NCBI RefSeq assembly: GCF_020386615.1
Contig: NZ_CP077769.1
Coordinates: forward strand, 6,869,501-6,933,500
From: Chitinophaga pendula
Lineage (GTDB): Bacteria; Bacteroidota; Bacteroidia; Chitinophagales; Chitinophagaceae
Length of the DNA stretch: 64,000 nucleotides
Direction of reading: 5' to 3'
Part shown: piece by piece, positions 12,771 through 33,898 of the stretch
How the letters are laid out: the number at the start of each line of letters is the position of its first letter
Numbering within the stretch: the stretch's first letter is position 1
Made by a program: the position numbers and the translations under genes
Notes under the pieces: model-generated
What the model saw: the letters and a program-made list of their open reading frames with translations, nothing else
What the model was told of the DNA's origin: nothing
Database searches by the model: none

Positions 12771-15700
12771 TTATTTGTAGGACATCTGTCTTGCTATTTG
12801 ACTTTTGTAATACTTACTTAAGAGATTGTAAGCGATCATTTCATAACGTCGTTGTCCTGCAGGGAACAGGCGGTTGAAATGCATGTGTATCAAACTGCTG
12901 ATCAGCTGTGGCTTATTGGATGATGTCGTATGTTTCCAGATAAGTGTCAGCAATGGTTTCATCTGTCGTTGCTTCCATCTGATCAATGTCATGATCTCCG
13001 GATACTCGCTGATGTAAGCATCTGGTTGTAGCCAGGCATTCAGCTGCGTGCTGTTATTCCTGAAGTATTGATTGATGATCTCTTTCTCTTCTTTTCCGGT
13101 ATTGAACTCTTTATCGAATAAGTCTTGTGATACCTGTGTCCATTCACTTTTTTGATGCAGCGGTAGTTTGCAGAGGGTCATTATATCATCCGCATATTTC
13201 AAGGCCGCCAGCATTAGCAGTAATGATTTTTGTGGTGTCTCCTGTAATAAGTCGGTCAGCTTTATTACATAGCAGCTGTCCATCCAGAATAAGGTTTCTG
13301 TCTCTGTAATTGTTTGAGCACCGTAGCGTTCCAGTTCACGGTTATAGGTATCTGTTTGGATTTTCCAGATGATATGTTGCTGAAAGACGGTTGCCAATCT
13401 TTCATTAAGCAGCCTTTCTAATGTACCGGTAAATTGCTCGTCCCGCAAATGGAAGCGCACTCTTAAATGAGGTTGCGGATCGTTGTAGCGGATAAAGAAC
13501 CACTTATCGATCTGTGAGGTAGCCAATAGTTCATTGGCAAGCGGAAGTATTAGTTCTTCCAGTATTTCATTGGCTTTTCTATTGTTGCAGTATAGCTTAT
13601 AATATGCCCATTCGGAACCTGGAGGGAAGTCGCGGGGCGTATCTACCAGTGCTTGTTGAATATCGTCGGCAGCAATATTGGTAGGTGCTACTTTAGCGAT
13701 TGCGACAAACTGGTGTGCATGTATTTGTCCGGCTGCATTGTGAACAACAGGAGCTGGTAACAAGTATTCTCTTAAATGGATAGTTTCTTTACGTTTGATC
13801 TCTGCGAGGAAGGTATCGATCGTTATGGGCTCCTCTTGATCAACCAACATGGTCTTGTCACCTTCTACCAGTACAAAGTATCTGGGTAATCGCCATTCCT
13901 TACAGAAAGCAGCAAAAGCAGCCGGTAGCTTAGCTGCTGAAGTAGTTAGTAGGCTATTCCATTTGTCTGCCGGTAGTTTCCATTCTGCGGCAGACAGGAT
14001 AATATGTTTATACTGTAGCCTGGGGAAGAAATAGATTCCAGGTAGGGTGGCGTTCCAAGAGAAGCCGAGAGAGTGTGTACAGTTTTCTCCTTGTATGGCT
14101 CCTAACAGACGATACAAAGGGAGTGTTTTATACTGGAAATTGTGTGCATTATCGATGCGTGGTAATACCTGCTTACCGAGCTTTTTGGAGAATAGCTGTA
14201 GGATCTGGTTTTCCATACGAAGATAAAGATCTTCAATGGGTAGCTGCTGTGCTAAGGGCAATGAGGACTGCGCTAGGTAAGGTATTTCAAATTGGCGGGT
14301 AACGGGATGTAGTAATATGTTTCCTACCCGGTCCTCCGGTAGATACACCACATCTGCGAGGACTTGGTTGGGATGTTGTTGCTGCTCGTATTCGGCTATC
14401 TCTCGTAGAAGTTGATGTGTTTCATCGCCTGTTCTGGCAAATCTCCCTAATAACGATGTTCCTGTAATCCCACCTACTACTTCGATATAAAGAGAAGCAT
14501 CTTCATCGTCTATTAACTGGAAGATAACCGGGAAGGTATCTGTCATGGGCACTTTGCTTTCAGTACCTTTTAGTTTTCCCAATTCATCAGCAGTGACCTG
14601 TACAGTATATGTATCGTCTTTATAGGCTTGCAGTAGCTTAGCCGCAAGTAAATCTTTGACTGGATGCTCTTCCCGTGGTGCGGTCATCGGAGGAATGGAG
14701 GTATTGTAATTATTAAGTTGATTTAAGAATGGATCATCGTAGTCCAGGTGATAAGGACCATTAGCATCAGGAATACCGGTATCCGGATCAATAACCTGTG
14801 GTAGTGGCACTGGACGTGATTCATATCTTTCAGCAAATTGTTCTTTAAAAGATGCTAGCCAAAGTAACTGCTTGGTCTTACCACAGAGAATATGTAGTAC
14901 TTGGATAGCTTCAGCGATGTCTTGCTGAAGCCCTTGGCTTACGGAGGTGTTGTGTAAAGTTATGCGTGTATCTACTTGTATTAATTTGTTGTGATCAAAT
15001 GGAATTCCTGTGGCTGTTATCAGCGTGGTGATTTCATCGATTGTGGCAAAGATGTTTGCTGTTGAAACACTACAGATATGATGTATTTGCTGTAGCGTTT
15101 TTAGTAGTGTTTGTCCTGGGGCGTAAGATGTCGGAACATTGCTCAGTGCCTCAATGATTTGATGTAAATAATCTCTTCCTGTAATCTGTACAGTGAGGTT
15201 GCTTACCAATATTTGATGTTGTATCAGTTCCTCTGTGAAGGCGGTAGCTTCTTCTATTTCGACCTGTCCACTATCGCGAATGAAAGTTGATATTGTAGTG
15301 AAACTCAAACCGTTTTGATGTTGGCTACAGCCGTCAAGTATCTTTTCCAATAATACAGAACCGGTGATGGCACTAACCTGGTATTTTTTATGCAATTCCT
15401 CGAAGTAACATTCATAATACCGATATTCTCCTCCCAGATCATAAAGCGAAGTATTAACATGATAATAGAGGCAACGACGGATGGCGGGATCCTGCTGTAT
15501 ATGTTGTACCAGGATACAGAGGAAGTCCATATCCAAGCGGACTTGTCTTTGCTTCTCGTTAATATTAATATCAGTTTGATCTGCCCAGGTCGCTAGCGAA
15601 TAACCAGAGAAGGCGCCAAAGGGGGTTGCCCGGCTGCGCATCCGATTATAGTATTTGCTGACTGTCAGCTTTAATTTTTTGATTTTCCTGATATCCTGGA

Positions 15701-15878
15701 TATCTCCTGCTTTCCATCGTTGGCATTCTTCATAAAGGTTAGCGGATGCTATACGGAGAGCTTCGAGAAAGGTTGAATTTTCCAGTAGTGCGCTCATCTC
15801 CGGTAGTTGCTCATGATCCCGGATGAATGGCAAAGTAGGCAGCCTGAGCATTAGCTTAGGGAAAAATGATACATTCAT
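12771..15878 (-). CDS. Class I lanthipeptide dehydratase (LanB), full length
   Basis: This 1035-residue enzyme joins a Lant_dehydr_N glutamylation domain (about 1-650) to a SpaB_C elimination domain (about 755-1020). LanB uses Glu-tRNA to glutamylate Ser/Thr of a precursor and then eliminates to Dha/Dhb. Residues expected by analogy with NisB are present: R79, R83 and T85 in NRMRSRATPFG, the HLRVRF arginines near 803, the NRELERYG arginine, and the His in LIHMHFNRLF near 1000. Both halves thus look functional. The gene is read away from the two-component genes, and a perfect palindrome lies 15 bp upstream of its start. It is convergent with the AraC gene. Confidence 0.92.
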   Translation of the reverse strand: MNVSFFPKLMLRLPTLPFIRDHEQLPEMSALLENSTFLEALRIASANLYEECQRWKAGDIQDIRKIKKLKLTVSKYYNRMRSRATPFGAFSGYSLATWADQTDININEKQRQVRLDMDFLCILVQHIQQDPAIRRCLYYHVNTSLYDLGGEYRYYECYFEELHKKYQVSAITGSVLLEKILDGCSQHQNGLSFTTISTFIRDSGQVEIEEATAFTEELIQHQILVSNLTVQITGRDYLHQIIEALSNVPTSYAPGQTLLKTLQQIHHICSVSTANIFATIDEITTLITATGIPFDHNKLIQVDTRITLHNTSVSQGLQQDIAEAIQVLHILCGKTKQLLWLASFKEQFAERYESRPVPLPQVIDPDTGIPDANGPYHLDYDDPFLNQLNNYNTSIPPMTAPREEHPVKDLLAAKLLQAYKDDTYTVQVTADELGKLKGTESKVPMTDTFPVIFQLIDDEDASLYIEVVGGITGTSLLGRFARTGDETHQLLREIAEYEQQQHPNQVLADVVYLPEDRVGNILLHPVTRQFEIPYLAQSSLPLAQQLPIEDLYLRMENQILQLFSKKLGKQVLPRIDNAHNFQYKTLPLYRLLGAIQGENCTHSLGFSWNATLPGIYFFPRLQYKHIILSAAEWKLPADKWNSLLTTSAAKLPAAFAAFCKEWRLPRYFVLVEGDKTMLVDQEEPITIDTFLAEIKRKETIHLREYLLPAPVVHNAAGQIHAHQFVAIAKVAPTNIAADDIQQALVDTPRDFPPGSEWAYYKLYCNNRKANEILEELILPLANELLATSQIDKWFFIRYNDPQPHLRVRFHLRDEQFTGTLERLLNERLATVFQQHIIWKIQTDTYNRELERYGAQTITETETLFWMDSCYVIKLTDLLQETPQKSLLLMLAALKYADDIMTLCKLPLHQKSEWTQVSQDLFDKEFNTGKEEKEIINQYFRNNSTQLNAWLQPDAYISEYPEIMTLIRWKQRQMKPLLTLIWKHTTSSNKPQLISSLIHMHFNRLFPAGQRRYEMIAYNLLSKYYKSQIARQMSYK

Positions 15879-16022: not shown

Positions 16023-16754
16023 TTATATCTTACGTTTGTTACCTACTAAACTTTGTTTAAGGATGTTAAAAAATGCTGTTTTATAAGTATCGCTTAATTG
16101 AATACCATCTTTTACATTTTTCAGGTAAATTTGATTCCCATCTATGGATTTGATACGTTCAATCGCGATGATATATGATTTGTGAACTCTGATAAACTGA
16201 TCCCTTGGAAGGCCTTCCTCCAAATCGTTCATATTTAACAAGGTAACGATTCTCTGTTGGTCAGTATGGATGGCTACATAGTTTTTGAGACCTTCAATAT
16301 GTGAGATCTCATTCAGTTCTATCTTTTGTAATTTATTTTTTGCATCGGTTTTTACAACTATAAAGTCAGTTTGTTTTTCCTGTTGCTTTTCTTCTTCAAA
16401 GGCCAATTGGTTCATGACTTTTTGTACGGCTCTGAAGAAGCGGTCATAAGAAATAGGTTTTAGGAGATAGTCTACGACTTCGTATTCAAAACCTTCCAAG
16501 GCATATTCCTTAAATGCGGAGGTAATGATGATGTTTGTCTTGCGTTTGACTAATTTGATAAAATCCAGTCCGGTTAGTTGCGGCATCTGGATATCTACGA
16601 AAATAAGATCGATAGCTTGCTCATTAACATAGTGTAATGCTTCCAGTGGATTGTTGAAAGCACCTTTCAAATCCAGAAAGGATACTTGTGAGACGTAATC
16701 GCGTAATAGGTCAAGGGCGTGCTGCTCGTCGTCTATTATTACACACGTTAACAT
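16023..16754 (-). CDS. LytTR-family response regulator in the RiPP locus
   Basis: This 243-residue protein has an N-terminal receiver domain (about 1-115: acidic pocket IDDEQ, phospho-Asp in FVDIQMPQLTG near residue 55, conserved Thr/Ser in IITSAF, Lys in YLLKPI) and a C-terminal LytTR DNA-binding domain (about 140-240, FIRVHKSYIIAIERI). It follows the kinase gene by 4 bp and forms an operon with it. The position between dehydratase and precursor genes suggests it controls peptide production, but no LytTR site was identified. Confidence 0.9.
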   Translation of the reverse strand: MLTCVIIDDEQHALDLLRDYVSQVSFLDLKGAFNNPLEALHYVNEQAIDLIFVDIQMPQLTGLDFIKLVKRKTNIIITSAFKEYALEGFEYEVVDYLLKPISYDRFFRAVQKVMNQLAFEEEKQQEKQTDFIVVKTDAKNKLQKIELNEISHIEGLKNYVAIHTDQQRIVTLLNMNDLEEGLPRDQFIRVHKSYIIAIERIKSIDGNQIYLKNVKDGIQLSDTYKTAFFNILKQSLVGNKRKI

Positions 16755-16758
16755 AGGT

Positions 16759-17877
16759 TCATAGTTTTAAGGTTAGGTCTACTGTATAAAATTCATCTTT
16801 ATCGTCTATTAGCAGTTGATACTTATTATTGCCATAAGCAAGATCCAGTCGCTTTTTGACATTGACCAGGCCAATTCCGCTACTGATCATATTGGTAGCG
16901 CTCGTTTTCTTTTTATTAAAGGTATGAAAATGGAGCTCATCATCTAAAACATCGATTTTTATCGTGGCGGGGTGCTCAGGATCATTGACATCTCCGTACT
17001 TAAAGAGATTCTCTACAAAAGTGATCAGGAGCATAGGGACTATACGTCTGTATTTAAAAGCATAGTCATTTTCGGGCTCAAATTCAATATAAAGACTGTT
17101 ATTGAATCGCAATTGGTGTATTTCTATCAGATTGTGAATATGTTGAACTTCGGTTTCCAGCGCGGTTTTGCCATCGTCATGATCATGTAATGCATAGCGC
17201 ATGATATCTGATAATAGCATGACACTGCGGGATGCACTTTGAGAGCATTTCATTACCTGCGTATAGATAAAGCTGAGTGTATTGAATAAAAAATGCGGTT
17301 GAATTTGGTATCTTAGATAGTTTAGATTTGAAATAAGTATTTCTTTTTCGAGCTGATTCCTTTTTTGCAATTCCTCGTTCCTCAATTTCTCAAGGTGTAC
17401 TAATTCCTTATTAATTTGAATAGTATGGGTTGTAAAAGAATAAGCATAACTGAGAGAGGCAAAATAGAGAAAGCGTGTACCTCTTATTGCTAAAAAATGT
17501 TTTAAAGTGAGAAAAGAATACATTGTTGGAATCTTAGCAACCTTCATGTATTCTGTTAGAGAATAATTCAAAAGCATATAAAAGACAATTAGCAGTAATG
17601 TTGCTATGGCTAGTTGATTATACTTTCTTGTGAAAGCAAACAATGGTATTAATAGAAAACTGTTGATATAAAATATCAGTGCATTTAATAAGAAGAATAA
17701 TAATGTGGAGGTGAGTGTTAGTCGAGCCGGATCTATAATAATGATAACTCCGTTTTCATATAGAAAATAAATTACCCATATTAACAGATGTATGTAAAAT
17801 TTCTGCAAATACCCATTTTTTCTGTCAGCTAGTATACTTTTAATTTGGAAGGCATGGTAAGGAGAATTTTTTTTCAT
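16759..17877 (-). CDS. LytS/YpdA-like sensor histidine kinase in the RiPP locus
   Basis: This 372-residue kinase has about four hydrophobic spans in the first 150 residues, with no recognisable extracytoplasmic sensor domain, then a coiled linker and a His_kinase domain with the phospho-acceptor in QIQPHFLFNTLSFIYTQV (near residue 195). The ATPase part shows the N-box variant FVENLFKYG and G-box SGIGLVNVKKRL. It is clearly more AT-rich than neighbouring genes, as is the precursor region beyond it, which may point to transfer. It is divergent from the precursor genes across about 150 bp that must hold both promoters; I could not place either with confidence. Confidence 0.9.
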   Translation of the reverse strand: MKKNSPYHAFQIKSILADRKNGYLQKFYIHLLIWVIYFLYENGVIIIIDPARLTLTSTLLFFLLNALIFYINSFLLIPLFAFTRKYNQLAIATLLLIVFYMLLNYSLTEYMKVAKIPTMYSFLTLKHFLAIRGTRFLYFASLSYAYSFTTHTIQINKELVHLEKLRNEELQKRNQLEKEILISNLNYLRYQIQPHFLFNTLSFIYTQVMKCSQSASRSVMLLSDIMRYALHDHDDGKTALETEVQHIHNLIEIHQLRFNNSLYIEFEPENDYAFKYRRIVPMLLITFVENLFKYGDVNDPEHPATIKIDVLDDELHFHTFNKKKTSATNMISSGIGLVNVKKRLDLAYGNNKYQLLIDDKDEFYTVDLTLKL

Positions 17878-18024
17878 GGAAAAAACAGCTTTTGTGTATT
17901 GATTAGCCCATTTCGTGTAATGAATTTCTATAAGTTAGTTAGGATTTCGAATTTTACTAGGTCTGGAATAAGTTTCTTAGTTTTTACATGAATGGATCAC
18001 TTGGAATTCGGTAATTTTTTATAT

Positions 18025-18213
18025 ATGAATAAATTTACTATTAATCATTTAGGTTGTTTGCAACTTGGAAAGAAAGTTATAATGAAAGTTGACGTTGCAA
18101 ATACTTCTTTTAAGATTTACGCGAAAATGCCAACTCAACCGACGACTGTGACAGATCCAATCACGACGATAATTACACTTACAACTAGTGGAGCGTTACC
18201 TGTCGAAAATTGA
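18025..18213 (+). CDS. RiPP precursor peptide 1, Cys-free Thr-rich core
   Basis: This 62-residue peptide has the Bacteroidota class I leader motif LxLxKxxI (L12, L14, K16, I19 in LQLGKKVIM). The region after residue 25 carries twelve Ser/Thr, many in clusters (QPTTVTDPITTIITLTTSG), and no Cys. The only Cys (C11) is in the leader. So no lanthionine can form within the core. Start M at 18025 is chosen because it puts the motif near residue 12, as is usual; an in-frame ATG at 17992 would add 11 residues. The segment PTTVTDP resembles PTFVDP in the second precursor, which supports a common origin. Confidence 0.72.
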   Translation: MNKFTINHLGCLQLGKKVIMKVDVANTSFKIYAKMPTQPTTVTDPITTIITLTTSGALPVEN

Positions 18214-18266: not shown

Positions 18267-18449
18267 ATGAATTATCCCAATTTAGTAAATGCTAACAACA
18301 GATTGCAACTCAAGAAAAAAATTATATTAAAAGTAGTGAATAATCAGATACCTGTCAAGGGTATGGGGATTCCTACATTTGTCGATCCTACTGGTGGTGA
18401 AAAATCAATGGATGCACTTTGTACTATATCTGTCACCGGCCGGCCATGA
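18267..18449 (+). CDS. RiPP precursor peptide 2, single-Cys core
   Basis: This 60-residue peptide has the leader motif LxLxKxxI (L13, L15, K17, I20 in LQLKKKIIL). The core region has one Cys (C52) in MDALCTISVTGRP and six Ser/Thr. A Gly-Gly pair at 43-44 could be the leader cleavage site, leaving a 16-residue core that begins EKS. If Ser47 were dehydrated, Cys52 could add to it to make one ring. Start ATG 18267 is preferred: earlier in-frame options are a TTG overlapping the first precursor's stop. It lies 53 bp after precursor 1 and 20 bp before the LanC-like gene, so one transcript is likely. Confidence 0.72.
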   Translation: MNYPNLVNANNRLQLKKKIILKVVNNQIPVKGMGIPTFVDPTGGEKSMDALCTISVTGRP

Positions 18450-18469: not shown

Positions 18470-19645
18470 ATGATAAATGCCAATATCATCCATCGTAGAC
18501 AGTTAGCCAACATTATCACAACTATCAATAGGTATTTTGGCCGGAAGTCAACGTTTTCGTTGGAAGATCTCTCTTTGGCACTCTTTTATCATCACCTTTT
18601 CTATTTGGAAGAGAACGTGATATATAAGGGAAAAAGGGATCAGATATTGGAGCAAATAGTGCGGAAGATAAAAGTGGAAGGATTAGCAGGTATAATGGGA
18701 ACCCCACAAGGGCCGTTCCTGATGAATTGCCTGGCTAATGTAATAAAGGGGATGTATCGTAATGAAGAAAACTCCCCCGCTCTTTATGACAGTGTAAACC
18801 AATTTAGCCACGAGTTACTCAACGAAGGTTGGATCACGAAAGAATGGTCCAACTGGGGGTATCTGGATGGATGGGCAGGAATGGCCAACTATTATCTGGA
18901 ATTGCCCAAGGAGTTCTCCTCTAGAGCCGCTTTCCTGAAGCGACTGGACCAGGTACCTGACGAGTGGATATTAACAAGTTTCGGACAATACCCAGGTTTA
19001 CCGTTCCGGCAAAGACCCCTGGTGGAAGTTGGTCTTGGAAGTGGCATCACTGGCATCTTAACAGTATTGGAGCGACTGGCAACAGCAACTGGTAATCCTT
19101 TATTAGCTACTTTGCTGGAAGAAAATGTTCGACAGCTGCTACAATGGCGCCAAGAGGTAGATCAGACCGCTTCAAAATGTTCTTTCTTTCCTTTCATGAT
19201 TGACAGAACGAAAAGAGAGGCCCATTACGATAATCGCCTATGGTGGAAAAGTGGAGACCTAGGACAGGTACTGTTACTCTACCGGAATGGACAGCTGCAA
19301 CATAATGATCATCAAGCCCGTACAGCGCTCCTCGTAGCCCTGAACACGCTAATGCGCAAAGTGCCGCAACATACGAATATCGAAAATGCCACAATAGAAG
19401 AAGGAGCAGCTGGCGTAGCAGAGTTATACCGCAAGCTTTTTCACCTGATGGGAAATACCCAATTGCTGGATGGATACCATTATTGGATATCCGAAACAGA
19501 GCGATTGCTGGAAAAGGAGGTTTCCGAAGGCCGTTGGTATTCGAGAGGGGTCGGTGTCCTGGATGGACTAACCGGTATTGGCTTGACACTTGCCTTCAGC
19601 GAATACGGAATGACAACTTCCTGGAGTGACGTTTTGCTAATATGA
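18470..19645 (+). CDS. LanC-like protein lacking the zinc and catalytic residues
   Basis: This 391-residue protein has the spaced Gly motifs of the LanC alpha-toroid: GLAGIMG (71), YLDGWAGMANYYLEL (131), VGLGSGITGIL (187), WWKSGDLGQVLLL (258), IEEGAAGVAELY (309) and GVLDGLTGIGLTL (362). In active LanC these motifs hold HGxxG, WCxGxPG and CHGxAG. Here the His is Ser191, the first zinc Cys is Lys260 and the Cys-His pair is Glu310-Glu311. No other Cys or His sits at these places, so zinc-dependent thiol addition is not expected. It may serve as a scaffold, leader-binding or substrate-guiding protein. It follows the precursors by 20 bp. Confidence 0.8.
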   Translation: MINANIIHRRQLANIITTINRYFGRKSTFSLEDLSLALFYHHLFYLEENVIYKGKRDQILEQIVRKIKVEGLAGIMGTPQGPFLMNCLANVIKGMYRNEENSPALYDSVNQFSHELLNEGWITKEWSNWGYLDGWAGMANYYLELPKEFSSRAAFLKRLDQVPDEWILTSFGQYPGLPFRQRPLVEVGLGSGITGILTVLERLATATGNPLLATLLEENVRQLLQWRQEVDQTASKCSFFPFMIDRTKREAHYDNRLWWKSGDLGQVLLLYRNGQLQHNDHQARTALLVALNTLMRKVPQHTNIENATIEEGAAGVAELYRKLFHLMGNTQLLDGYHYWISETERLLEKEVSEGRWYSRGVGVLDGLTGIGLTLAFSEYGMTTSWSDVLLI

Positions 19646-32061: not shown

Positions 32062-33099
32062 ATGTTTAAACAGGTATCAAAATATTGGTGGTGTCAGGGT
32101 TTGGGATGGATGGCATATTTTCTGATGACTATCTACAATTTCTTCTCCACTTTTGGAATCATACGATATATTGAAATATTTAACCTGTTAATATTCATTA
32201 CATTCGGTATACTATCCACCCACCTTTTTAGAAATATCCTCAAGCGCTACAATTGGCTTAGTTATAGTTTCGAAAAACAGGTATGGTTGTTTTTCATATG
32301 CGTCATTAGCTCGGGGGTCATTATCAGGTTTGGCGTGTTAGTGGTGACTAATCTTTTCCGGTATCCGTCCCAAAAAAAGGCGCTTTCCAGTGAAACAACC
32401 GTATTGGAATTGTTGGGTACCTCATTACTCATGGTGGTATGGTGGCTCATTTACTTTATCTGGCACTATGTCGATCGTAACCGTAAAGCCCAGGTAGATC
32501 AATTGAAACTGGAAAGTACAGTAAAAGAACTGGAATTGAAGACGATCAAGGCGCAAATGAATCCGCATTTTATCTTTAACGCACTCAACAGTATACGGGC
32601 GTTAGTAGACGAAAATCCGCAACGAGCAAGGGCTGCAATTACAGAATTGTCTAATATACTACGGAACTCCATGCAGGTAGAAAAGGGGGAAACAGTACCA
32701 CTTGAGCACGAGCTGAATATTGTAAAAGATTACCTTGCACTGGAGAACATCCGATTCGAAGAGCGTCTGCACGTCACATACGATATTGATCCGGATACGC
32801 TGGAACTGCCAGTACCGCCTATGATGTTGCAGACACTGGTGGAAAATGCGATAAAACATGGGATCTCACGTTCTGTTAATGGCGGGACTATTCATATCAG
32901 CTCCCATGTATTAGGGGTATTACACGAGATACAAATAGAAAATACCGGACAGATGCTGGAAGAAGTAGGAGAGCATGGATTTGGTCTGCAAAGTACCCGC
33001 CAGCGCTTGAATGTGTTGTTTGGCCATAAGGCATCTTTCGAGATCCATAACAAAGACACGGAAATGGTAGCCGCCAAAGTAGTGATGCCTTTGATTTAG
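32062..33099 (+). CDS. LytS-like sensor histidine kinase (second LytTR system)
   Basis: This 345-residue kinase has four hydrophobic spans in residues 10-135 and no extra sensor domain, then a His_kinase domain with QMNPHFIFNALNSIRALV (phospho-acceptor near 171) and an ATPase with LVENAIKHGI and HGFGLQSTRQRL. The response regulator gene follows 70 bp later. It is similar in layout to the kinase at 16759 but its residues are those of the common Bacteroidota form. The target is unknown. Confidence 0.91.
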   Translation: MFKQVSKYWWCQGLGWMAYFLMTIYNFFSTFGIIRYIEIFNLLIFITFGILSTHLFRNILKRYNWLSYSFEKQVWLFFICVISSGVIIRFGVLVVTNLFRYPSQKKALSSETTVLELLGTSLLMVVWWLIYFIWHYVDRNRKAQVDQLKLESTVKELELKTIKAQMNPHFIFNALNSIRALVDENPQRARAAITELSNILRNSMQVEKGETVPLEHELNIVKDYLALENIRFEERLHVTYDIDPDTLELPVPPMMLQTLVENAIKHGISRSVNGGTIHISSHVLGVLHEIQIENTGQMLEEVGEHGFGLQSTRQRLNVLFGHKASFEIHNKDTEMVAAKVVMPLI

Positions 33100-33169
33100 A
33101 TGGATTGCTTACCGGTCGATTTATGTAAAGTCCAAATATATACTCATCAACCAAACCTTATAGTTGACA

Positions 33170-33898
33170 ATGAAAAAAGCATTGATCATTGATGATGAAC
33201 GCCTGGCCAGAAGCGAACTGAAGAAGTTATTGGCCGAGCACCCGGAAATTGTAGTAGTAGGAGAAGCAGTAAACGCTAAGGATGGGCTGGAAAAAATAGA
33301 AACCTTACATCCTGACCTGCTGTTTCTCGACATACAAATGCCGGATAAAACGGGTTTTGAATTGTTAGCGGAACTGGAAAAGGTGCCGCAAGTGATCTTT
33401 ACGACCGCATATGACGAATATGCCCTCAAGGCATTTGAATACAACGCTCTTGATTATCTGCTTAAACCTGTAGAACCTAAACGCCTTGCGGATGCTATCC
33501 ATAAATTACATCAGCAGGAAGAAAAAGAACGACAGGCAGCTGCTGGTATCATTCGTACCACACTGTCTGAAAATGACCAGGTGTTTGTAAAGGATGGAGA
33601 TCGTTGCTGGTTTGTTAAATTACAGGAAATCAGGCTTTTTGAGAGTGTGGGTAATTATGCCAGGGTATACTTTGAGAATAATAAGCCATTGATACTCAAG
33701 TCACTCAACGCGCTTGAAGAGCGATTAGACGAGCGGACTTTTTTCCGAGCTAACCGTAAGCATATCGTTAATCTGAGAATGATCGAAAAGATCGATACTT
33801 ATTTTAATGGTGGGTTGTTGCTGGAAATGCGTGGGGGAGAAAAGATTGAGGTGAGTCGCCGGCAAGCTGTGAAATTCAAAGAAATGATGAGCCTTTAA
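33170..33898 (+). CDS. LytTR-family response regulator (second system)
   Basis: This 242-residue protein has a receiver domain (IIDDERLARSELKKLL, phospho-Asp in LLFLDIQMPDKTG, YLLKPVEPKRL) and a LytTR domain (FFRANRKHIVNLRMIEKI and VSRRQAVKFKEMM at the end). ATG 33170 is preferred to a TTG two codons upstream. It acts with the kinase gene just before it. Confidence 0.92.
   Translation: MKKALIIDDERLARSELKKLLAEHPEIVVVGEAVNAKDGLEKIETLHPDLLFLDIQMPDKTGFELLAELEKVPQVIFTTAYDEYALKAFEYNALDYLLKPVEPKRLADAIHKLHQQEEKERQAAAGIIRTTLSENDQVFVKDGDRCWFVKLQEIRLFESVGNYARVYFENNKPLILKSLNALEERLDERTFFRANRKHIVNLRMIEKIDTYFNGGLLLEMRGGEKIEVSRRQAVKFKEMMSL

Follow-up and report, generated by a model that had tools for sequence, protein, structure and literature searches.

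A class I lanthipeptide-type cassette with a zinc-less LanC-like protein and a linked sensor pair in Chitinophaga pendula

The soil bacterium Chitinophaga pendula harbors a class I lanthipeptide-type gene cassette in the stretch of 64,000 nucleotides analyzed here (the window; contig NZ_CP077769.1, positions 6,869,501 to 6,933,500). Three genes lie on the minus strand, encoding a full-length LanB dehydratase (12771..15878), a LytTR response regulator (16023..16754) and a histidine kinase (PF06580) with hydrophobic N-terminal segments (16759..17877). Divergent to the kinase gene, on the plus strand, are two precursor genes (17992..18213, with ATG at 17992 or 18025, and 18267..18449) and the gene for a LanC-like protein of 391 aa (18470..19645), the boundaries of which match an open reading frame exactly. 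Near the cassette we identified neither an exporter nor a leader protease. Within 6 kb, all four loci of the clade described below likewise lack a C39-type exporter, but this says little since only 28 of 100 intact-LanC loci have one. A scan near the precursors for a Bacteroidota-type promoter consensus returned one -7-like site with no -33 partner. A second histidine kinase/LytTR-like pair is found at 32062-33898, more than 12 kb from the LanC gene.

Residues 36-390 of the LanC-like protein match the Pfam LANC_like profile (PF05147) at 64.8 bits (cut-off 23.2), and this match together with a predicted alpha/alpha toroid fold places it in that family. The Cys-Cys-His triad of zinc-dependent class I LanC enzymes is nevertheless gone: on alignment with NisC, C284 is replaced by K260, C330 by E310 and H331 by E311, and the acid/base residues D141 and H212 are replaced by G130 and S191. 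The ligand losses read in the earlier note (Ser191, Lys260, Glu310-Glu311) are thus borne out. Its wording that all zinc and catalytic positions are replaced goes one residue too far, as Arg280 is kept as R256 (H or S in clade relatives), and the Gly-rich toroid motifs, described there as kept, survive only in part. Five later Gly pairs are retained, while the first two are lost (E/S at 32/35 and L/C at 84/87, positions that are 97-99% Gly in 120 intact LanC proteins). The protein contains two Cys (87 and 237) and ten His, of which only Cys87 and His41 are both invariant in the clade and rare in intact LanC proteins.

The comparison covered the window and 120 regions fetched around LanC matches at family and genus level, 40 chosen from matches to PF05147 and the window protein and 80 from the stronger genus-search matches, a sample that leans to likeness with the window clade. 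Near-identical loci are counted separately except where stated. Among the 130 LanC proteins in this set, 108 align with the His and the CCH triad intact (103 with the full DHRCCH), which argues that the lost site is no alignment quirk, and 22 do not retain them. A further 11 order-level regions were used only in the tree and among the 120 intact LanC proteins of the position comparison. The Ser/Lys/Glu-Glu pattern, which the earlier note proposed to look for in other Bacteroidota, appeared nowhere else among the 130.

The window protein groups in one clade with the proteins of three other genomes (G006, G431 and G447) and the database protein P0002, which is 94% identical to that of G006 (SH-aLRT support 100, by a quick method). 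The genus search gave some match to the window protein in 53 of 79 genomes, and the four matches above 300 bits were those of the four clade genomes. At family level 28 of 394 genomes had some match, with only two full-length close matches, both in Chitinophaga; at order level (396 genomes) the clade was not found beyond the family, the best extra-family match (G704) having intact sites (DHMCCH). A scan of genome contigs with two word patterns found only C. tropicalis, missing both G431 and G447, and protein-database searches, each scoring about 8000 candidates, added only P0002. The sites are lost in all five clade sequences, which read GLHRMN at the six positions in G006 and P0002 and GKSDQY in G431 and G447. 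Because the clade members all lack the sites at identities to the window protein of 36-49%, the loss is old, and the replacing residues are not conserved. The dN/dS value, from G431 and G447 as the sole measurable clade pair (the window and G006 are too divergent), is 0.14 for lanC, 0.07 for lanB and 0.06 for the kinase gene, and the precursors of this pair have no amino-acid changes (dN 0). The earlier note preferred changed function to a chance mutation, and this preference is supported by a loss common to a well-supported clade, by purifying selection on lanC and by its kept place in the LanB cassette. Although the clade comprises only three distinct lineages, its LanC looks re-purposed rather than decaying.

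On the LanC tree the zinc-site losses require at least 4 changes and are most simply explained by 7. In our reading of the tree one of the seven is a clade of degenerate proteins (support 98) from twin-LanC clusters, which also holds the LanC proteins of L090, L216 and L221; the remaining six (the window clade, L053/L055, L136, the L123 group, L135 and L124) are all sensor-linked. In the six twin-LanC clusters (L089, L139, L148, L149, L165 and L179) an intact LanC adjoins the degenerate one, the precursors have 2-4 core Cys, at most 12 bases separate a LanC gene from a luciferase-like monooxygenase gene (PF00296 checked in L089), and a C39-type exporter lies within 6 kb. The L123 group (L123, L126, L128, L131 and L133) is a second group to lose the zinc site, reading DQRCCN or DQRCLN. 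Its precursors have one Cys, and a sensor pair and an S41-like protease (Pfam match checked in L123) accompany them, but the fetched 20 kb include no LanB; lanC dN/dS is 0.04-0.09 in three pairs. LanC-like proteins with lost sites also occur in L053 (9530-10759) and L055 (9454-10680), where no LanB or precursor was recognized; the neighborhood encodes a sensor pair, a protein resembling lipid A acyltransferases and a protein with a weak, sub-cut-off M50 match.

The LanB of the window retains both the glutamylation and the elimination residues that we checked, namely R83, R87, T89, D121, D299, R464, R784, R786, E823, R826 and an HMHxNR motif, those that matter according to work on NisB. They are kept in all four clade loci. 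In 75 LanB proteins from intact loci, 102 columns are at least 95% conserved; 91 of them are kept in the window LanB and 90-92 in its relatives. The dehydratase is thus full-length with both residue sets, as expected of a class I lanthipeptide system and as the earlier note had it for both halves, and from these retained columns and residues dehydration by LanB is expected.

Both precursors carry the Bacteroidota leader motif (LxLxKx5 followed by a hydrophobic residue) beside the enzymes. Precursor 1, with leader LQLGKKVIMKV, has a Thr-rich core without Cys, its only Cys lying ahead of the leader motif; precursor 2, with leader LQLKKKIILKV, has one core Cys, and its start was read from the sequence at ATG 18267 (the listed ORF starts at TTG 18210). 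Precursors were sought with a leader profile built here from 169 seeds, the core being everything after the leader motif, and the two score 7.6 and 9.2 (99.5% level of shuffled sequences, 0.13). Five precursors were found in the four clade loci, including that of G431/G447, which scores 0.1, marginally under the initial cut-off of 0.13, but was retained because it adjoins lanC and has a TLPTT core. Cys was counted in precursors scoring at least 5 plus the G431/G447 pair, and the 7 loci in which an intact LanC coexists with a lost one were left out. Four of the five clade cores are Cys-free, that of window precursor 2 being the one with Cys, as compared with 6 of the 263 cores from loci with intact LanC (Fisher 5e-6; 1e-4 if the G431/G447 precursors, which are identical, enter as one; kinship ignored). 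Small Cys-free ORFs scoring from 0 at intact loci number 11 and mostly look spurious. The Thr fraction of the clade cores is 0.11-0.25 (0.11 in precursor 2) against an intact mean of 0.11, and TLPTT(L/I)TG is common to the G006 and G431/G447 precursors.

At the other single-LanC lost-site loci 11 of 13 precursors have one Cys and 2 have two. Given these counts and the Cys-free clade cores, loss of the zinc site tends to go with fewer Cys. Few Cys alone is no marker of a lost site, because 8 of 15 sensor-linked intact loci have only one-Cys precursors and L137 (7262-8777), with intact LanC and LanB, has five precursor-like ORFs of which two have Cys-free cores. Mean core Cys at intact-LanC loci is 2.64 with a sensor pair near and 3.31 without. 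L136, the tree sister of L137, has a lost LanC site, making L137 a possible intermediate. The precursors of L125 (13843-14037), L129 (5635-5814) and L132 (5737-5913), sensor-linked loci with an intact LanC, have their only core Cys within an [ST]xRPxC motif and are candidate signal peptides with one ring; the end of window precursor 2 reads TGRP and lacks the Cys of that motif.

The sensor pair is a fixed part of the cassette. Gene order is identical in all four clade loci, with 0.36-0.59 kb between lanC and the kinase end of the pair, and the regulator is the best-conserved cassette gene (67-76% identity to the three relatives, followed by the kinase at 53-62%, LanB at 43-48% and LanC at 36-47%). 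With intact-LanC loci as the control, a histidine kinase and LytTR regulator lie within 4 kb in 14 of 14 single-LanC lost-site loci (4 of the clade, 10 others) versus 15 of 100 intact loci, and within 1.5 kb in 9 of 14 versus 14 of 100 (Fisher 2.5e-10 and 1.3e-4, kinship ignored). Loci holding both an intact and a lost LanC have the pair in 1 of 7 cases. This linkage raises the question of whether the LanC-like protein acts away from any peptide, as an effector downstream of the LytTR system. A precedent exists in CA_C0082 of Clostridium acetobutylicum, a LanM-like protein that has also lost its zinc ligands and adjoins an agr-type quorum-sensing system (PMC10301443), and in 8 of the 10 non-clade lost-site loci the fetched 20 kb do not include a LanB. 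However, the linkage is weaker at 1.5 kb, and all four clade loci have retained precursors and a conserved LanB, which speaks for peptide processing. C. acetobutylicum has no other lanthipeptide genes, and CA_C0082 is of the LanM family and lies beside agr genes; the window protein has a LanC domain only, and no AgrB- or AgrD-like match was found among eight scanned window proteins, so it does not resemble an agr effector of that type. We consider such an effector role unlikely.

The reading we prefer, at a probability of roughly one half, is that of a class I lanthipeptide-type cassette that hardly needs thioether rings, in which the zinc-less LanC is kept as a helper of the peptide or of LanB and the product is a linear, dehydrobutyrine-rich peptide, plausibly a signal. 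LanB would glutamylate and then eliminate Thr and Ser of the small, Thr-rich precursors. The LanC-like protein, with the toroid kept but the zinc site absent, very likely would not catalyze Cys addition and could instead bind the leader or the dehydrated peptide and hold or assist LanB. Of the roles proposed in the earlier note, a scaffold or leader-binding one fits best, because the clade cores are nearly Cys-free; an enzyme using the Ser/Lys/Glu-Glu residues is not supported, because the replacing residues vary among lineages. Precedents for a helper exist in the zinc-free cyclase domain of ThurKC, which is required for the formation of dehydroamino acids even when supplied in trans (PMC10604976), and in the complex formed by NisB, NisC and NisT (PMC8546558), though LanB need not require one, since NisB dehydrates without NisC (PMC8546558). 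As the metal site is lost, LanB appears intact, the sensor pair is kept and the peptides are almost free of Cys, the product is probably dehydrated and uncyclized, and perhaps a signal. Because the kinase and LytTR regulator are fixed in the cassette, the peptide could plausibly be sensed by the pair or, alternatively, the pair could control its synthesis, although this step is weaker than the others. A ring may still form, as precursor 2 has a core Cys and a further class I LanC (L071), its sites intact, is encoded in the source genome.

A rebuilt active site, with Cys87, His41, Asn86, Trp135 and other residues, could instead make the LanC-like protein a new enzyme that adds a nucleophile to, isomerizes or otherwise modifies Dhb or Dha. 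Invariant in all five clade members yet present in fewer than 20% of the 120 intact LanC proteins are 46 of 391 positions, among them Cys87 (replacing a Gly present in 119 of 120), the new His41 and Asn86, and Gly130 in place of Asp141. Purifying selection on lanC is consistent with this idea, but invariance across three distinct lineages partly reflects common ancestry, the former active-site positions differ between lineages, and neither Lys, His nor Cys occurs in the Thr-rich tail of the G006 precursor. Such an enzyme seems about as improbable as the effector.

Somewhat less probable again is a cyclase that needs no metal and forms lanthionine or labionin with the one core Cys in precursor 2. 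Class III LanKC cyclase domains are zinc-free (PMC10604976, PMC7268733) and cyclize without zinc ligands (PMC10604976). LanKC enzymes are fused lyase-kinase-cyclase proteins, whereas PF05147 is the only domain found in the window protein, which stands alone beside a LanB. Against such a cyclase, the replacements differ from those of ThurKC (Ser, Phe and Asp) and vary among the relatives, and neither precursor 1 nor the precursors of the three relatives have a core Cys. A decaying gene retained by chance is very improbable, even though lanC shows the lowest conservation in the cassette, given a full-length ORF in all four genomes, a dN/dS of 0.14 and a loss shared, with invariant residues, by three distinct lineages.

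Lantibiotic clusters have been reported in Chitinophaga (PMC3091789). Compared with NisC and other class I LanC proteins (PF05147), the clade described here lacks the zinc ligands, the His212/Asp141 pair and the first two Gly pairs, and its precursors are Cys-poor. The combination of an active dehydratase and a zinc-less cyclase fold, described as unusual in the earlier note, is less rare than was thought, in view of LanKC, of the further losses in Chitinophagaceae and of a 'B-Unk' class in which LanB is paired with a cyclase of undefined triad (14 peptides; PMC11251773). The latter survey was of short ORFs containing C, S and T, and its passages on this class give a count, with no treatment of the window clade. 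Bacteroidales LanC-like proteins without the C-CH motif also occur, but these have no LanB and lie near radical SAM or carbohydrate enzymes, and the authors doubt a lanthipeptide role (PMC10352776). Among titles and abstract openings, in a search of mostly open-access literature, we found no description of a Cys-free, LytTR-linked, zinc-less class I cassette.

A wider version of the helper reading is tentative, and we hold it rather less probable than the helper reading itself. The LytTR-linked Chitinophagaceae might contain a lanthionine-free class I branch, in which core Cys fell to one and then to none, the zinc site was lost repeatedly and independently, and a linear, Dhb-rich pheromone is the product of LanB and a pseudo-LanC, the rebuilt LanC with its invariant Cys87 and His41 serving as chaperone or new tailoring enzyme. 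As a case in which the zinc site and nearly all core Cys are gone and the protein is kept, the cassette offers a natural test for a job of LanC besides ring-making, and a tractable Gram-negative case of possible signaling by a modified peptide. Filing every locus with LanB and LanC as a lanthionine producer may mislead for some of them.
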